The notes below the pieces were generated by a model, which had not been told where the DNA came from, did not search any database, and saw only the letters and a program-made list of their open reading frames with translations. Shown piece after piece: positions 6,831 through 48,831 of a stretch of 54,442 nt of DNA. Position 1 is the first letter of the stretch. Every line of letters begins with the position of its first letter. The position numbers and the translations under genes are program-made. Source of the stretch: a virus; the IMG/VR virus record IMGVR_UViG_3300021197_000088, positions 1-54,442 of that record; one strand, given 5' to 3'.

Positions 6831-7186
6831 TTAAAATGTATACAAAGGATACTCTAGATGAGTTAGATGAGGATGTTGAATACTATAAACAACAATCTAA
6901 AGACCTATCCCTTACATGTTGGGATAAAGATGTGTATAGCGATAGGTATGCTAGACAGATAAAAAGACTAAAAAAATTGCGGAAGCTATTAGAACGTGGT
7001 CTGAAGGTAGAGTTCTTTGGACAAAAGAATTTTGGGTTGGTTGAAGTAAACAATAAATATGTAGTATGTCTACTACACAATCAGTGGAGAACTGTGCGCA
7101 AAAACAAATGGTATAAGCACAAGCAAGACTTAAATCATTTTATAGACAACTATATTTTAGGAGATAAAAATGAAGCTAACACTTGA
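6827..7186 (+). CDS. Basic hypothetical protein (119 aa)
   Basis: The gene starts inside the helicase stop (ATGA) and overlaps the DNA polymerase start by 17 nt. Residues 1-60 are predicted helical and charged (YARQIKRLKKLRKLLERG); the second half is aromatic and basic. It is embedded between helicase and polymerase, so a replication accessory role is plausible, but no family is recognised. Confidence 0.65.
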   Translation: MIKMYTKDTLDELDEDVEYYKQQSKDLSLTCWDKDVYSDRYARQIKRLKKLRKLLERGLKVEFFGQKNFGLVEVNNKYVVCLLHNQWRTVRKNKWYKHKQDLNHFIDNYILGDKNEANT

Positions 7187-9212
7187 TATAGAGAACACAG
7201 TCACTAAGCGTGATGGCAAGATGCACCTTGACCCGTTTGAGCCAGAGAACTCACTGACTATGGTGGGTATGCTAAATGACCAAGGTGTCAAACGCATCGT
7301 CACATTTGACCACAGTGATGTAAGTGCAGATGAATATGGTCACGTATTGGTACAAGAGTTTCTTGATGCAGCTACCGTACTCATATGCCACAACGCTGCA
7401 TATGATTTGATGTGGTTGTGGGAGTCTGGATTCAAGTATGATGGGCCAGTGTTTGACACGATGCTTGCAGAGTATGTATTGCAGCGTGGTATCAAAGAGC
7501 CACTGTCCCTTGAGGCTTGTGCAGAACGCTACGAGTTGGACACCAAGAAGCAGGACACACTTAAGGAATACTTTAAGCAAGGCTATAGTACACGGGACAT
7601 ACCGTACAACGAGTTGTGTGAGTACCTGTCTGCTGACCTTCATGCTACACAGCAACTGTCTGACAAGCTGATGTATCGACTGAATACAGTAGCTGACAGC
7701 GGATTACGTGGGACAGTAGACCTGACCAATCAGGTGGCTGTATGTCTAGCACGTATCTATCAGCGCGGCTTTGCTGTTGACCTATCTAAGTTGGATGAGG
7801 TGCGACAGGAGTTTGAGCAGGAGAAGAAGCAGCTTGAGGAAGACCTACAAGCTCACATACGTAAGCTGATGGGTGATACACCTATCAACCTGAACAGCCC
7901 AGAGCAGCTATCTTGGGTTATCTACAGCCGCAAGGTAAGGGATAAGCCGTATTGGGGCAATGCTATTGACCCCTACATGGATGACGCAGACTTTCGTAGC
8001 TTAATTGCAGGTGGTACAGAGAAACTCTACAAGACTACTGCACAACAATGTCGTACCTGTAATGGTACAGGATATATTAGAAAGGTGAAGAAAGATGGAA
8101 CACCATTTGCTAGACCAACAAACTGTAAGGACTGTAGTGGGTGCGGCTATCTGCTTGTACCTACTATGGCACTGGCGGGGCTAAAGTTCAAGCCCCCCTC
8201 ATCTAAGTGGGCAAGTGCCAACGGCTTCAGTACTAGCAAGCAGAACCTAGAGATACTAGAGTCAGCAGCCAAGCAACGTGGCATGGCTGACGCTGTTGAC
8301 TTCCTATATAAAGTGCGCAGACTGAGTGCAGTTGATACGTACCTGTCATCCTTTGTTGAGGGTATAAGTACATATACAAAGCAGGATGGTAAGCTGCATG
8401 TACGTTTGCTTCAGCATCGCACAGCTACAGGCCGCTTCTCTGGTGCAGAACCCAACATGCAGAACATGCCCCGTGGCGGCACGTTCCCTGTAAAGAAAGT
8501 ATTTGTGTCACGATTTGCTGGCGGTAGGATTATGGAAGCTGACTTTGCACAGCTTGAGTTTAGGACTGCTGCCTATTTATCACAGGACAAGGTGGCGATA
8601 GATGAAGTATCTACTGGATTTGATGTACACTCATACACCGCTAAAGTTATTACCGATGCTGGTCAACCTACGGATAGGCAGACTGCGAAGGCTCACACGT
8701 TTGCACCGCTTTATGGCGCAACGGGCTTTGGGAGAACGGCAGCGGAAGCAAAGTATTACACACACTTCACAAACAAATACAAAGGAGTCTCAGAATGGCA
8801 TACCCGACTGGCTAAAGAGGCTGTGAATACACGTAAGATTACTACACCAAGTGGGCGTGAGTTCTCATTCCCCGATGTAGTGCGTAAGGTTAGTGGGCGT
8901 GTGTCACACTTTACGCAGATTAAGAACTACCCCGTGCAATCATTTGCTACTGCAGATATTGTACCGATTGCTTTACTACACATAGATGGCTTGTTAGATA
9001 ACATGCGGTCATGTATAGTAAACACAGTGCATGATAGTATTGTTATTGACATACACCCTGACGAAGAACAACAGGTAATCAGTGTCATAGACGCTACTAA
9101 TAAAGCACTACCTTATCTCATCACCCAACGATGGGGTGTTGAGTTTAATGTGCCTTTATTATTAGAGGCAAAAATAGGTCCGAATTGGCTTGACACCAAG
9201 GACGTAACCTGA
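7170..9212 (+). CDS. Family A DNA polymerase with 3'-5' exonuclease and inserted DnaJ-type zinc finger
   Basis: The 680-residue protein has an N-terminal proofreading exonuclease (LDIEN with D6 and E8; CHNAAYDLMWL near 72-82; YLSADLHAT near 155). The polymerase domain has motif A EADFAQLEFR (D458), motif B R503-x3-K507-x3-F511-x3-Y515-G, and motif C VHDS (H621, D622). Between them, C294xxC297-NGTG and C319xxC322-SGCG form a DnaJ-like zinc finger with 21 residues between the CxxC pairs. T7 and E. coli enzymes lack this insert; it is the remembered hallmark of HMO-2011-type phages. Phe at the E. coli 762 position is the type usually linked to lytic phages. It replicates the phage genome. Confidence 0.93.
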   Translation: MKLTLDIENTVTKRDGKMHLDPFEPENSLTMVGMLNDQGVKRIVTFDHSDVSADEYGHVLVQEFLDAATVLICHNAAYDLMWLWESGFKYDGPVFDTMLAEYVLQRGIKEPLSLEACAERYELDTKKQDTLKEYFKQGYSTRDIPYNELCEYLSADLHATQQLSDKLMYRLNTVADSGLRGTVDLTNQVAVCLARIYQRGFAVDLSKLDEVRQEFEQEKKQLEEDLQAHIRKLMGDTPINLNSPEQLSWVIYSRKVRDKPYWGNAIDPYMDDADFRSLIAGGTEKLYKTTAQQCRTCNGTGYIRKVKKDGTPFARPTNCKDCSGCGYLLVPTMALAGLKFKPPSSKWASANGFSTSKQNLEILESAAKQRGMADAVDFLYKVRRLSAVDTYLSSFVEGISTYTKQDGKLHVRLLQHRTATGRFSGAEPNMQNMPRGGTFPVKKVFVSRFAGGRIMEADFAQLEFRTAAYLSQDKVAIDEVSTGFDVHSYTAKVITDAGQPTDRQTAKAHTFAPLYGATGFGRTAAEAKYYTHFTNKYKGVSEWHTRLAKEAVNTRKITTPSGREFSFPDVVRKVSGRVSHFTQIKNYPVQSFATADIVPIALLHIDGLLDNMRSCIVNTVHDSIVIDIHPDEEQQVISVIDATNKALPYLITQRWGVEFNVPLLLEAKIGPNWLDTKDVT

Positions 9213-12112: not shown

Positions 12113-12260
12113 GATGTACATAACCATAGACATAGATGATGAAGAATATCCAGTGCCAGCAGATGGAAGAGTTGGTGATGAATTAGAAGAGAGCATACAA
12201 GAATACTTTTATGACATAGAAGGTGCAGACATTAAACACATTAGAACAATTACGGAGTGA
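12102..12260 (+). CDS. Small acidic hypothetical protein (52 aa)
   Basis: The ATG at 12102 lies in the end of the DUF3310 gene. The product begins MRVKMYITIDIDDEEYPVP and ends HIRTITE, a strand-helix-strand pattern with high acidity. Its last codons carry GGAG (12254-12257), the ribosome binding site of the reductase gene. Function unknown. Confidence 0.6.
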   Translation: MRVKMYITIDIDDEEYPVPADGRVGDELEESIQEYFYDIEGADIKHIRTITE

Positions 12261-12265
12261 CAGAG

Positions 12266-14197
12266 ATGCTAAGAAATACATTACCAACAGACTACCAGAA
12301 CTTTATAGCCTTATCTCGCTATGCAAGATGGAAAGATGATGAGCAACGCCGTGAGACATGGGGTGAAACTGTGTCCAGATATTTTGATTACATGTCTAAG
12401 CACTTGCAAGACAATCACAACTATAAAATATCTCAAGCATTAAGAGGCGAACTAGAGGATGCAGTACTTAATCAGAGTATCATGCCTAGCATGAGAGCGT
12501 TAATGACAAGTGGCCCCGCACTTGACCGCTGCCATGTAGGTGGATACAACTGCTCATACGTACCTGTGGATAGCCCTCGTGCATTTGATGAGACTATGTA
12601 CATACTTATGTGTGGTACAGGCGTAGGCTTTAGCGTGGAGCGTCACTGTGTAGAGAAGCTACCTACCGTAGCGGAAGACTTTCATCGTACTGATACAGTA
12701 ATCAAAGTAGGTGACAGCAGACCCGGCTGGGCTAAGTCACTTAAAGAGTTGATTGCTATGCTGTATATAGGTCAGATACCTGCATGGGATATGTCAGAGG
12801 TACGCCCTGCTGGTGCTAGGCTCAAAACATTTGGTGGTAGGGCATCAGGCCCACAGCCTCTAGTAGAATTGTTTGAGTTTGTTGTACAGAAGTTTAGAGG
12901 TGCAGCAGGACGTAAGCTATATCCTATTGAGTGTCACGACATTATGTGTAAAATTGGTGAGGTTGTGGTCGTTGGCGGTGTACGTAGGTCAGCACTCATT
13001 AGCTTATCTAATTTAAATGATGACCAGATGGCACATGCTAAGTCAGGTAAGTGGTGGGAGTATGAAGGACAACGTGCGTTGGCTAACAACTCTGTAGCCT
13101 ACAAGACTAAGCCTGAGATGGGTACATTTATGCGTGAGTGGTTGTCGCTGTACGACAGTAAGTCAGGTGAGCGTGGTATCTTTAACAGGCAGTCAGCTAT
13201 AAAGCAAGCTGCTAAGAATGGTAGACGAGATACTGAGCATGACTTTGGTTGTAACCCTTGTAGTGAGATAATCTTACGCCCCTATCAATTCTGTAATTTG
13301 TCAGAGGTAGTAGTGCGTCAAAGCGACACACTCGACACATTGAAAGAAAAGGTTAGGTGGGCTACACTTCTTGGTACATTCCAAGCTACATTAACTAACT
13401 TTAAATACATACGTAAAATATGGAAAGATAACACAGAGGAAGAAAGATTGCTGGGTGTGTCACTAACAGGTATCATGGACAATCCTATGACATCTAAGTC
13501 TGGTGAAAGACTAAACATACTGCTGGGTATATTAAAAGATGAAGCTGTACGCACTAACAAAGAGATGTCAGAATCTCTTAACATACCACAAGCAACTGCT
13601 GTCACTTGTGTGAAGCCTAGTGGTACAGTGTCACAACTTACTGATGCAGCGTCAGGTATTCATGCAAGACACAATCCTTTCTATGTACGTACTGTACGTG
13701 GTGATAATAAAGACCCACTTACACAGTTCCTTATATCACAAGGCATACCTTCTGAACCTGACGTAATGAAACCCGACTCAACGACAGTGTTCAGCTTTCC
13801 TATGCAGTCACCCTTGGGTGCTATCACACGCACACAGATGAACGCTATAGAGCAGCTAGAGTTATGGCTCACCTATCAGCGTTACTGGTGTGAACATAAG
13901 CCTAGTGTAACAATTTCAGTTAAGGAATCTGAATGGATGGACGTAGGTGCTTGGGTATACAAACACTTTGATGAGGTGTCTGGTATCAGCTTCCTGCCAT
14001 TCAGTGAGCATACATATCAGCAAGCACCTTATCAGGATATAGATAAAGATGAATACAAAAAGTTCTTGACAAAAATGCCAAAGAATGTAGACTGGTCATT
14101 ACTCAAGGAGTTTGAGAAAGAAGACACCACATCAGGTGGACGTGAGTTAGCGTGTACTGCAGGTGTGTGTGAAATTGTAGACATAGAGGCAGCGTGA
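12266..14197 (+). CDS. nrdJ: Adenosylcobalamin-dependent (class II) ribonucleotide reductase
   Basis: The product (643 residues from ATG 12266) resembles monomeric class II reductases such as the L. leichmannii enzyme. Visible elements are the redox cysteine C96 (GGYNC), CGTGVGFSVE, N-P-C332-S-E-I with the thiyl C343 (QFC-NLSE) exactly 11 residues apart, CVKPSGT, and a C-terminal CTAGVC pair (C630, C635) for reactivation. It reduces ribonucleotides to deoxynucleotides using B12, so the host must make or import cobalamin. A GTG at 12257 is in frame, but GGAG 12254-12257 is placed for the ATG. Confidence 0.92.
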   Translation: MLRNTLPTDYQNFIALSRYARWKDDEQRRETWGETVSRYFDYMSKHLQDNHNYKISQALRGELEDAVLNQSIMPSMRALMTSGPALDRCHVGGYNCSYVPVDSPRAFDETMYILMCGTGVGFSVERHCVEKLPTVAEDFHRTDTVIKVGDSRPGWAKSLKELIAMLYIGQIPAWDMSEVRPAGARLKTFGGRASGPQPLVELFEFVVQKFRGAAGRKLYPIECHDIMCKIGEVVVVGGVRRSALISLSNLNDDQMAHAKSGKWWEYEGQRALANNSVAYKTKPEMGTFMREWLSLYDSKSGERGIFNRQSAIKQAAKNGRRDTEHDFGCNPCSEIILRPYQFCNLSEVVVRQSDTLDTLKEKVRWATLLGTFQATLTNFKYIRKIWKDNTEEERLLGVSLTGIMDNPMTSKSGERLNILLGILKDEAVRTNKEMSESLNIPQATAVTCVKPSGTVSQLTDAASGIHARHNPFYVRTVRGDNKDPLTQFLISQGIPSEPDVMKPDSTTVFSFPMQSPLGAITRTQMNAIEQLELWLTYQRYWCEHKPSVTISVKESEWMDVGAWVYKHFDEVSGISFLPFSEHTYQQAPYQDIDKDEYKKFLTKMPKNVDWSLLKEFEKEDTTSGGRELACTAGVCEIVDIEAA

Positions 14198-15220: not shown

Positions 15221-15470
15221 CGGCCTAAGTAAATATGATGCTCCACTACGTATTCAATACCAGTGGGGCTATGAAGCCTTTAAACGTGGTGGTAAGCTAA
15301 TTAAAGTAGGTGATAAAACTATGTTTCAAGAGAACCGTCCTAACATTGACCCTAACACTATGCAGTATCGTGAGTGGGAACGAGGATGGAACGATGCCTA
15401 CCATGAGAATCTAAACAAGGGTAAAACTAATGACACTAGAAGAAGAGGCGAAACAGTGGATGAAGAATAA
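15210..15470 (+). CDS. Basic hypothetical protein (86 aa)
   Basis: Starts after TAAGGAGACCAAAG, overlapping the previous gene by 11 nt. The product has GYEAFKRGG and YREWERGWNDAYHEN, a motif style seen in phage proteins related to ribosome modulation factor-like peptides (W/G-rich 'WxxGWxDA'). That link is only suggestive. It overlaps MazG by 41 nt. Confidence 0.6.
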   Translation: MRRSGLSKYDAPLRIQYQWGYEAFKRGGKLIKVGDKTMFQENRPNIDPNTMQYREWERGWNDAYHENLNKGKTNDTRRRGETVDEE

Positions 15471-15813
15471 ATCTTTAAGCGGTATAACAGCTACTGAATA
15501 TCAGATACGTGCAGCAGAGACAGCCATCTTCCCAAAAGAAAAAGCCCTTGAGTATATTACTCTTGGGCTTACTGGTGAGGCTGGTGAGATTGCTAATAAA
15601 GTTAAGAAGCTGATACGTGATGGTGCAGATGTTGAAGGGTACAACGATAAGTTAAATCAGATAGGTGCAGAGTTAGGTGATGTCCTGTGGTACTGCGCTA
15701 TGCTGGCAAGAGAAGTGGATATAAATCTTGGTAGTGTTATGGAAAGCAATCTTAAAAAGTTGGCAGATAGGAAAGCTAGGAATCGCCTACAGGGTGATGG
15801 TGACAATCGTTAA
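15430..15813 (+). CDS. mazG: MazG-like nucleotide pyrophosphohydrolase
   Basis: The 127-residue product contains the MazG metal-binding pattern E50-x2-E53 (LTGEAGEI) and E81-x2-D84 (AELGDVLWY) within an all-alpha fold, at the usual length of single-domain MazG proteins. It hydrolyses nucleoside triphosphates to monophosphates, and in phages it is proposed to tune (p)ppGpp or nucleotide pools. The start lies inside the previous gene. It is followed by small membrane peptides and the operon terminator. Confidence 0.88.
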   Translation: MTLEEEAKQWMKNKSLSGITATEYQIRAAETAIFPKEKALEYITLGLTGEAGEIANKVKKLIRDGADVEGYNDKLNQIGAELGDVLWYCAMLAREVDINLGSVMESNLKKLADRKARNRLQGDGDNR

Positions 15814-15997: not shown

Positions 15998-18900
15998 ATT
16001 TGTACGCATCCCTTAATGCTTTGCCATACTCAGCAAGGGCAAACAAGTCTTCCACACTAGCACCATCAGCAGGTCTACCTTCACCCAGCAAGAACTCTGA
16101 TGCAGCATTCTTACGTATGTCAGAGGGAAGCCTACGATAAGCTGTCATAGCTTCTATGTATGCAGGTGCATCAGCCATTACAGTCTTGCCATCTGATAGT
16201 TGTTTCTTGGCTGCTTTAATCTGAGTTGTGATAAGAGGTTTGATACGACTATTGACAAACTCTTGCTCAGTCATCTCATCCTGTAGTTCAGGACTGCCCT
16301 TGTAAGTATCACGAGACTGCTCTTCATAAGCCTGTGCTGCAGCTACAATACCGGGGATGATGTCACGCAATTGAGCATTCTCAAACCTACGTATGCTAGG
16401 TACTTTAGATGTACTACCCAACTCAAACTCAGTTAAACCAAGGCGTTTAATATACTCACCCTCTTCACTATCCTGTGTTCTCAGGGTAAGACCTAGCCCC
16501 ACCTTCAATGCTGAACCCACTCTACTTGATTCCTCTTGGAATAAGCGTTCACGTTTGGGTTGTTCATCTTCTGTTATTACACCATCCTCATTTATGTCTA
16601 GGTCTACATCTCTTTTATTTACAGTACCGTCTTTATTTACTCGCACATCTCTAGCTATAAATCCTCTTGCCTCAAAGGGTCGCTTAATCTCCTTCTCAAA
16701 AGTAGAACCAAAGTCTAGTGTAGGGTCTAACGCTACGTCCTTATATATTTCTCCACGTCTACCTAATGCACGTTCAGTATCAATTATTTGTGCAAACGGT
16801 ACAGCCCATGTAGATAGATAGTTACCTAAAGCACGTCCTACTCGCCTTGCTGCAGCTTCATCCCTAGTCAAATCAGAATCACCTGCTAGTTGAACAACTT
16901 CATCTACGATGCTATTACCTACCCCTGTACGTATGTTAGTTCCTAAGAATGTCTCAAAAAACTCCCTTGCATTAAAGAAGTCATCGAATGTGCCATCCTT
17001 TACACGCTTAGTTGCTTCACCTAAGTACAGCATCTGACGTAGAGGAAACTGTGGTGTAGTATCTAGTACTGTACCATCACCTACATTAATCTCTTTATAA
17101 TCGGCAGGTGCATCCTCACCACTACGAGCCATGTAAGCTGCACCAACTGCACCTATGCCTACTAAGTTACGTGAGATACGTTGTCTATCTTTGGCAGATA
17201 GTTTAGTGCCTTTAGGTATTTGACCCATCAGCTTCTTTGTTAATGGTATAGATGCACCACCTGCATAATTACCCATCAACTCCATTGAGTTAAACATAAA
17301 GCGTGGGAATGGCATTACAACGGTCAAGCCATTACGAGTAATGAACGATGTAGCTTCTCTGAACACACCAATGTCAGGCTGCTTTGCATAGGTTACATCT
17401 AGTGCATTGTTAGTAGCATCAGCTACCAGTTCATTAAATGACCTAGCACCTTTAGGACGTACCGTAGTTGAATCGTTAAGCAAGTCTTTAATCTTGCCCT
17501 CATTCAACGTGTCAATTAAATCAATCTTATACTCACGCTTGACTAGGCGTTCTAGTTCACCAAGGAATGCACCCCTGCGTACAAGGTATTCTTGCCAGCG
17601 GTTAGCACTGTTTAGTACACTGACACCATCCTCTAGTTCAGATAGTACAAAATCTGCTCCCTTGCCCAGTGTAGTCGTAGCCTGTCCACGGCCTGTTGCT
17701 TGCTGAAGTTCATTAAGCTGGTTAAACATAAGGTCAAACTGCTTGGATAGTTCAGGTCTATCTAAGATAAAGTCAACATACTCTTTGGCATCTAGTCTGC
17801 TTTCAGGCCCAAACATATACTTCATGTTGGCAAAGCTATCTTTCCAGTTTTCCCTACTCAGTATAGACTTAGCACCAGCAGCAGCCTTACCACCTACGCC
17901 CTTTGCTTCGCCCATGTTGTACAAGGCAGTGTCCATTACGTTACCTAGTGAATCCATAGGTGAACGAATACCAGCAGACTGTAGGTTACGTGCGGCAGTA
18001 GCAAGCTGAGACACTAGACCACCACGGCGTACGCCTTCTAAGCGCATGATGTTATTACGTATATTACCCTGACGTGCCTGTGTAGCTGCACGTTGCAAGT
18101 CTTGCATCTCATTGAGTGGCCTTGCACGTTTAATCTGAGACAGCTTGTTCAGTACCTTACCTGCCTCTGAGCCAGAGCCTACGACAGTAAGGATGTAATC
18201 CTCAAAGGATACATTGTACTTGTTAAGAGTGTCGATGAGTTCATCACCCGCTATCAGTTCTTTGTTAATAGTCAGGTCAAGCAGGTTATCAATTACAGTC
18301 TTATCATTATCAAACGCTGTAGGATACTTAGTCTTTAAGTCTGCGGCTGCAGCAACTAGACCATCTAGCTTCTCTGGCTTGAGTATAGGTGCTACAATAG
18401 AATCGCTTTCCCCTTGCAAATTAAACAAAAGTCTAGCTGTGTCATCGTCAGCAACTTCAACATCTTTGCCTGATGTGATAACATCACCTGCTGATGTTTT
18501 CCTGTCCTTAAATTCTATTTCTCTAGCAGTTTCTCTACCTGCTTTACGTGCTAGTTCATCATCAACTACACGCACACCGTCTACTACAGTTGAGATGGTC
18601 TTACCTGTCTGCTCTTCAAAGCCTATGATAAGTTCATTCTTTAAGTCTACATTCTCTGCAGCTACCTGTTCAGCCCTTGCTGTCTTAGCTGCTATCTCTT
18701 CTGCCGTAGCTTCCTTGGCCTTGTTGATATTCATCTTACGGTCAAGCAGTTTCTCACGGGCTTTCTCACCCCTTTTTTGTAGCTTGGCTGTTTGTTTAGC
18801 CTCTCTAAATAGCTTTCTTACAGGACGCATAGCCGCTGAAGCACCCGGAACCATATTCTCCATCATCTCTAACATCATACCCATATCACCAGCAAACTTC

Positions 18901-47536: not shown

Positions 47537-47752
47537 TTAGTCGCACTTATCTTTTCCTGCACAGTCTTTGGGATAACAATGCACTTGCATAGAGTAGTAG
47601 TCATTTTGGTAACTAGCTGCCCATTTATTATCTTGTAACATATATTCACATTGTTTTTCAGTCATAGGTTCTTGTAATGCGAGTTGTCCTATATAATGGT
47701 CTGTAACACCATCACTACCCCACATACTTATGACCATTATCCACTCTTTCAT
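47537..47752 (-). CDS. Small exported two-cysteine protein B (71 aa)
   Basis: The product (MKEWIMVISMWGSDGVTDHY...) has a short hydrophobic N-terminus, then KQCEYMLQDNKWAASY and SMQVHCYPKDCAGKDKC, with extra C-terminal cysteines. It belongs to the same style as the small proteins at 42876, 48835 and 51839. It overlaps the next upstream gene by one base. Confidence 0.58.
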   Translation of the reverse strand: MKEWIMVISMWGSDGVTDHYIGQLALQEPMTEKQCEYMLQDNKWAASYQNDYYSMQVHCYPKDCAGKDKCD

Positions 47753-48831
47753 TACGCTGCCAGTGCGGGATTACTGGCATCTACCTGCATCCATTTAGAC
47801 CACTCTGCATAATAGTGTCTCATGCCTACTTCATCGTGGATTGTACTATTCTCATGTCTACCATGCAAGATGTTACGAGGTTCTGTACCTTCTCGCATTG
47901 TAGTACCCTGACCTGCTACACCTAGTAAGTCTTCGTGCAGGTTTCTACCAAACGGCCCCCATATAGAGTTGTGATGCTTTATACGAGTAGCTCTTTCTTC
48001 GGGGGTGTCTTTCTTTAAACCATATCCACGGAACTCAATCAATACTTTGTTTGGTCCTAGTGGTGTTACGCTGTCGCTACGATAAGCACTCCCACGTAAG
48101 TTGAAATTAAATCCGGGGAATAAGTCAACCATATACCATTGGTTGGGCGGCAGATTGGGAAAAGATAACTCCCCCCTATCTTCAAATCCCTGATACTCTT
48201 CATAGTTAACAGTAAAGCTGCTGACGTTAACATGACCATTATCAAAAGGAATATTTTTTCTAGCGAAATACTCATCATTAAATCCTGACACACGATTAAA
48301 GTAATGCATGAAGTCGTGATAGAACTCGCTATTAGTGTCGTGCCACAACTTGTAGTTAGTATCTACAATAGCTTTATGGTAGTGAAACACTTCCATTTCT
48401 TCAGCATCTATTGCATCCGCTATGCAATCAAATGCACCCGCAGTCCACTGGTCTACGGTTAAGCTATTGCTTTGGTCTAATGTAGTCCACACCATACCGC
48501 CATGCTTTATTTCGCAGAGTAGTTCTGTCCATAAACCGGAATGATATGTTAGAGATAAATCATTACCAGCAGGACGGTTTACTTTATCCGTAAGGAAAGT
48601 TTTAACTTTATTATTTTCAAAACGTATAGCAGCGACATTGCATCCTGCTATCTGTGTAGTTCTGAAATCGCCTAAGTGTGGCAACTCACTTGAGTGACAC
48701 ATAGGAACCCATACCTTAGAGAATATGTTTTCTAGTTCCTGTTCATATAAACTGTGGTCAGAATAAATAAGAGAGTTAATATACTCTACGCTAGGTTGTT
48801 TAGTCCAGCTTTGATGATTACGTGGTGCCAT
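47752..48831 (-). CDS. Ring-hydroxylating oxygenase alpha-like protein (MsmA-like) with degenerate Rieske site
   Basis: The 359-residue product follows the alpha-subunit plan of Rieske non-haem oxygenases, and HMO-2011 is remembered to carry a methanesulfonate monooxygenase alpha gene. The C-terminal domain keeps a mononuclear-iron motif: E169-F-Y-H172-x3-H176 and a possible third ligand D301 (NLHEDLLG). The N-terminal region aligns with the Rieske module (VKTFLTDKVNRPAG ... LSLTYHSGLW), but the CxH pair is K83 and N85, and of the CxxH pair only H97 remains. It therefore cannot bind a normal 2Fe-2S cluster. It may be a structural or regulatory relative, or work with another electron route. 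Confidence 0.72.
   Translation of the reverse strand: MAPRNHQSWTKQPSVEYINSLIYSDHSLYEQELENIFSKVWVPMCHSSELPHLGDFRTTQIAGCNVAAIRFENNKVKTFLTDKVNRPAGNDLSLTYHSGLWTELLCEIKHGGMVWTTLDQSNSLTVDQWTAGAFDCIADAIDAEEMEVFHYHKAIVDTNYKLWHDTNSEFYHDFMHYFNRVSGFNDEYFARKNIPFDNGHVNVSSFTVNYEEYQGFEDRGELSFPNLPPNQWYMVDLFPGFNFNLRGSAYRSDSVTPLGPNKVLIEFRGYGLKKDTPEERATRIKHHNSIWGPFGRNLHEDLLGVAGQGTTMREGTEPRNILHGRHENSTIHDEVGMRHYYAEWSKWMQVDASNPALAA

Follow-up and report, generated by a model that had tools for sequence, protein, structure and literature searches.

In Rieske oxygenases the cluster lies ∼12 Å from the iron of the neighboring subunit, to which it is linked by a bridging acidic residue (PMC12445004). MsmA, of the methanesulfonate monooxygenase (MSAMO), is defined by the segment CxH-X26-CxxH (PMC4433239, PMC5068391), and the loss of this motif in the 'MsmA' proteins of phage HMO-2011, viromes and GOS was already published in 2015 (PMC4433239), as was the finding that IMCC1322 has two 'MsmA' proteins with the motif in only one of them (PMC4433239). 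Phage 'msmA' has been cited as an auxiliary metabolic gene of the sulfur cycle (PMC4928673, PMC10134843). Outside this family, a catalytic subunit without a Rieske cluster is known from the caffeine N-demethylase complex NdmCDE, in which the Rieske domain of NdmD supplies NdmC with electrons (PMC10380055).

The window, by which we mean the whole stretch of 54,442 bases analysed here, is a virus record of the HMO-2011 type that encodes a family A DNA polymerase with a DnaJ-like region, an integrase and an endonuclease I. Phages of this type are among the most abundant phage groups of the ocean. The type is recognized by a DNA polymerase A with a DnaJ domain together with an HMO-2011-type terminase (PMC8528129); in the window we found PF00476 in 7170-9212, where PF00684 also matches with 23.2 bits, which is below the family cut-off, and the polymerase and TerL are 82% and 88% identical to those of HMO-2011. 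This similarity points to SAR116 as the probable host. The window also contains a ribonucleotide reductase (12257-14197) with likeness to the B12-dependent type and fragmentary Pfam matches, and a gene for a MazG-like nucleotide pyrophosphohydrolase (15430-15813). A thymidylate link via ThyX was discarded because ThyX is absent from the window.

The gene under study is a real open reading frame, and K83, N85, H97, E169, H172, H176 and D301 are located in its product where the original prediction had placed them (Table 1). The only Pfam match of the protein was PF00848 (Ring_hydroxyl_A, residues 144-349, E 2e-7), with none above the cut-off for the Rieske family and no family in PHROGs, while its N-terminal scaffold (residues 19-82) is matched by solved biphenyl, naphthalene and carnitine oxygenases. 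A search across the window for a partner domain of the Rieske or Pyr_redox_2 type found none. The gene is located in the late structural and lysis region, apart from replication and metabolism genes, and its neighbors are small unknown proteins and a nearby lysozyme (PF00959, 45700-46185), in agreement with the setting first described for it. Gp61 of HMO-2011 (YP_008320323, annotated as methanesulfonate monooxygenase) occupies the same late-gene position, is 74% identical to the window protein and also lacks the Rieske ligands, but it forms the deepest branch of the short clade and has a different variable segment.

Table 1. Positions of the features discussed in the text. Unprefixed coordinates refer to the window and those with an L prefix to bacterial contigs; V, viral; C, cellular short; M, true MsmA; R, R-half.
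Feature	Position	Strand	Observation
Rieske-less MsmA-like protein (C-half), 359 aa	47752..48831	(-)	ATG start; PF00848
Remnant of Rieske cluster-binding segment, residues 63-104	48520..48645	(-)	∼50 residues shorter than MsmA
K83-V84-N85, first taken as the CxH position	48577..48585	(-)	C/H in 0/98 short proteins at MsmA C1/H1
H97	48541..48543	(-)	Present in 56/83 V, 0/15 C; hypervariable stretch
Catalytic (mononuclear Fe) domain, residues 126-348	47788..48456	(-)	Nearly invariant
E169, bridging acidic residue (expected role)	48325..48327	(-)	E in 83/83 V, 15/15 C, 63/63 M; 0/13 R
H172, Fe ligand	48316..48318	(-)	Invariant in V, C, M; absent in R
H176, Fe ligand	48304..48306	(-)	Invariant in V, C, M; H in 1/13 R
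D301, Fe ligand	47929..47931	(-)	Invariant in V, C, M; gap in 13/13 R
R-half examples, MsmA-reductase fusion	L086:1243-3690; L200:4157-6553
∼275-aa protein	L083:4953-5792; L086:4921-5745; L096:4924-5805; L200:12555-13385; L201:12689-13534

The alignment comprised 83 viral proteins, 15 cellular short proteins, 63 true MsmA, and 13 sequences of a second MsmA paralogue (R-half) that is described below. CxH-X26-CxxH and all eight ligands of the Rieske and iron sites are present in 63/63 true MsmA, whereas no Cys or His occupies the C1, H1 and C2 columns in any of the short proteins (83/83 viral and 15/15 cellular). As the loss extends to 98 of 98 proteins, it characterizes the whole family and does not stem from sequencing error. 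Moreover, IMG/VR has at least 599 C-half relatives, of which the best 80 were examined and all 80 are Rieske-less. A scan of bacterial genomes recovered two groups, true MsmA of 409-433 aa and short proteins without the Rieske site, which measure 352-364 aa (∼359 aa for the window protein) and come mostly from SAR116. A deletion of ∼50 residues (MsmA positions ∼83-140) has removed both metal-binding loops from the short proteins, so that the ligands went with it and were not replaced one by one by K83 and N85, as had been proposed for the CxH pair. Identity to true MsmA in the cluster segment is accordingly 0.09 for the viral and 0.08 for the cellular short proteins, with 0.80 for the R-half. 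The original prediction, that three of the four ligands are lost, thus holds in the sense that a usable Rieske site is missing throughout the family, but not in its view of H97 as the remaining one, because this residue lies in a hypervariable stretch and is missing in 27 of the 83 viral and all 15 cellular proteins, which makes it no conserved leftover ligand.

From its sequence, the window protein is without the capacity to hold a Rieske cluster of its own. As first proposed, electrons cannot reach it through its own 2Fe-2S cluster and it should not be called a self-sufficient alpha subunit of methanesulfonate monooxygenase; the phage 'msmA' product is unable to work alone. The remnant of the cluster segment (residues 63-104) evolves with a pN/pS of 0.58 among phages vs 0.22 in the cellular copies. 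This region is also mosaic among phages, as seen in L064, whose residues 1-42 resemble those of the window protein and are followed by a different allele.

Apart from the missing CxH-X26-CxxH segment, the window protein shares with MsmA the N-terminal scaffold, the iron site and the catalytic domain, in which it is ∼74% identical to the 63 MsmA (group values of 0.74 for viral, 0.73 for cellular short and 0.25 for R-half sequences). Its E-x2-H-x3-H plus Asp arrangement is that of 63/63 MsmA, so that the site is intact as had been noted, and this in all 83 viral proteins, while the x3 spacing that had been considered unusual is the ordinary one for the family. The domain is under strong constraint both in phages (pN/pS 0.057, from a pN of 0.042 and a pS of 0.75, with synonymous change near saturation) and in cellular copies (0.051), and it is 93% identical between phage and cellular short proteins; the cellular C-halves are 71-78% identical to the window protein.

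Structure prediction led to the same family. An AlphaFold2 model built from a 51-sequence alignment had a pLDDT of 85.9 and a pTM of 0.87; an input of 24 near-identical sequences gave a pLDDT of 47 and that model was not used. When the better model was compared by VIA-align, salicylate 5-hydroxylase aligned with a Z of 33.7 and an rmsd of 2.4 over 315 residues (span 14-350), terephthalate and biphenyl dioxygenases with a Z of 33, and several Rieske oxygenases with a Z of 31-34 over 306-329 residues. The predicted fold is thus that of a Rieske oxygenase alpha subunit, with a Rieske-domain scaffold and a helix-grip catalytic domain.

The same fold could in principle have been put to another use. 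The phage protein might no longer be an oxygenase but serve in the virion, in adsorption or in lysis while retaining the oxygenase fold, as would fit its place between the lysozyme and small genes of unknown function (a position shared with HMO-2011), its hypervariable and mosaic N-terminal segment, and the absence of the cluster ligands. We regard this as highly unlikely, because the 83 viral copies, which have diverged to a pS of 0.75 with a pN of only 0.042, show no variation in the iron site and in almost all of the catalytic domain, and because the bacterial copies to which the domain is 93% identical reside within a sulfonate gene cluster. These observations also speak against the repurposing as a structural or binding protein that had been put forward at the outset. 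The suggestion made alongside it, that the protein is alternatively fuelled, is likely right, and the SAR116 genomes provide a specific candidate for the electron source.

In fact, SAR116 genomes with the short protein also encode the R-half, an MsmA paralogue of 796-857 aa in which a Rieske domain with intact CxH-X26-CxxH and a degenerated MsmA catalytic domain are fused to an MsmD-like FAD reductase (Pyr_redox_2/Reductase_C) at the C-terminus. All 13 R-half sequences keep the four Rieske ligands and all 13 have lost the E, the first His and the Asp of the iron site, the segments WHDTNSEFYHDFMH and RNLHEDL being deleted or scrambled. Selection on the R-half mirrors that on the short protein, with a pN/pS of 0.029 in the cluster segment and 0.506 in the catalytic domain. 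Furthermore, the cluster segment has a mean identity of 98% within the group and retains the long MsmA spacer. R-half and window protein share an origin in MsmA and have complementary residues, one with the cluster site and without the iron site, the other the reverse.

The two halves also occur together. Among 136 genomes of the SAR116 order the C-half was found in 12 and the R-half in 11, all of them within those 12 (Fisher p 2.5e-15, a value that overstates independence since the co-occurrence is partly due to shared ancestry, and the gene cluster may have been inherited once). In the twelfth genome (G034) the contig stops inside the R-half gene. Intact MsmA is present in none of the 12 genomes with the C-half, while G005 has intact MsmA and neither half. 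Two contigs titled as bacterial (L097, Rickettsiales, and L098, Hellea) carry the C-half without the R-half; both are phage-like and were counted as viral, so that G004, the genome to which L097 belongs, does not count as a bacterium with an unpaired C-half. Two further arrangements were observed: the SAR116 genome G003 has two copies of both halves (C45 and C16), and G035 encodes the R-half and the reductase in two overlapping frames and not as one fusion (L202:16189-17181 and 17178-18575), as a result of either gene fission or faulty assembly. As mentioned above, the loss of the ligands in phage MsmA was already published; for the split pair or the R-half partner, we found no description in the open literature searched.

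In SAR116 the C-half is in or near a gene cluster with the R-half, an MsmB-like protein, an MsmC-like Rieske ferredoxin, an unknown protein of ∼275 aa, a LysR regulator, a TauE sulfite exporter and C1/folate genes, as well as a divergently transcribed gene for an NMT1-like substrate-binding protein. In G024, which we take to be IMCC1322, the host of HMO-2011, three molybdopterin/FeS/membrane genes resembling a sulfite dehydrogenase are located between the halves. The ∼275-aa protein is encoded directly upstream of the bacterial C-half in 5/5 loci, and the copy of L086 had no Pfam or NCBIfam match; it may be a factor for the assembly of the split enzyme or an accessory to it.

The MsmC-like ferredoxin adjoins both halves in every fully read cluster (L083, L085, L086, L091, L096 and L200), and this raises the possibility that the C-half is an active Rieske-less oxygenase fed directly by host MsmC or another reductant, with the R-half being vestigial and kept for its reductase. 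NdmC gives a precedent, as it is a Rieske-less oxygenase served by a Rieske domain in trans. However, the cluster segment is the most constrained part of the R-half and its long spacer is kept, which would be unexpected in a vestigial protein, and we consider this explanation unlikely.

On the viral side, the IMG/VR contigs contained no relative of the Rieske domain of MsmA, of MsmB or of MsmC at the patterns used, and neither intact or R-type MsmA nor the ∼275-aa gene was found in viral contigs at those patterns. Within the searches made, viruses thus appear to carry the catalytic half only. Among the sequenced isolates of the HMO-2011 type, the C-half is present only in the SAR116 phage HMO-2011 and not in the RCA (roseophage) or Pelagibacter phages, and in the family to which the MAG G006 (titled Planktomarina, possibly a mixed bin) belongs, the R-half was found in just one of 198 genomes, which suggests, for a small set of isolates, that the gene and the host partner go together. 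In both trees the cellular short proteins group as a single clade nested among the viral sequences, with HMO-2011 deepest. This hints at a transfer of the C-half from phage to bacterium, but a tree with the phages as a single clade was not rejected (AU p 0.21).

That the phage has one half, without MsmB, MsmC or the R-half, could also mean that its C-half is a decoy which binds the host R-half, outcompetes the host catalytic subunit and so diverts or stops sulfonate metabolism; in line with this, the segment beside the lost cluster site diversifies fast in phages and slowly in cells. Such a decoy would not need an intact iron site, and the constraint on the catalytic domain is as strong in phages as in cells, so that we give this idea very little credence.

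All these data lead us to consider it probable that the product of the window gene is the catalytic half of a split, MSAMO-type Rieske oxygenase, to which the R-half of the host would give electrons across the subunit interface. On balance, we also favor the wider proposal that reciprocal degeneration has divided the oxygenase into two subunits, one with only the cluster and one with only the iron, neither of which works without the other, and that the subunit with the iron circulates in abundant phages; the bacterial catalytic subunit may even be of phage origin. Because cluster and iron of adjacent subunits cooperate in Rieske oxygenases, subunits with opposite defects can form a working interface. 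In the proposed mechanism the two halves would form a mixed oxygenase, which could be an odd-numbered ring of mixed subunits or rely on a docked Rieske domain. NADH would be the electron source, with the reductase domain and/or MsmC as carriers to the cluster of the R-half, from which the electrons would cross the interface to the iron of the C-half via E169, which is expected to link the iron site to the Rieske cluster of the neighboring subunit. The iron would then oxidize methanesulfonate, or a sulfonate like it, with sulfite and formaldehyde as the products; this substrate is suggested by the similarity to MsmA and by the gene context, and the reaction fits the surrounding uptake, sulfite-export and C1 genes. 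During infection, the phage C-half would join the R-half of the SAR116 host and the reaction would be boosted or retuned. The late structural and lysis location of the phage gene counts against the split enzyme, as does the hypervariability of residues 63-104 in phages, where cells are more constrained, so that the phage half may have another interaction.

The arrangement proposed here has its nearest counterpart in NdmC, which we compare by description and which is likewise a Rieske-less catalytic subunit with its Rieske domain in trans, fused to a reductase (PMC10380055). A Rieske domain linked in this way to a reductase was found in the SAR116 cluster, as the R-half, and not in the phage itself. 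However, NdmD is an otherwise ordinary reductase with an extra Rieske domain, whereas the R-half is itself a paralogue of MsmA whose iron site is destroyed, in a loss reciprocal to that of the C-half, and, unlike NdmC, the C-half is also virus-encoded.

If the phage gene encodes one half of a split enzyme, the phage could have its effect only where the host encodes the other half, as in a biochemical lock and key. The reading of viral msmA counts would change, and SAR116 'msmA' genes, either R-half or C-half, would have to be counted as pairs. Finally, the split pair would represent a natural experiment on the electron transfer between subunits of Rieske oxygenases, since the two metal sites are on separate genes and each can be studied without the other.
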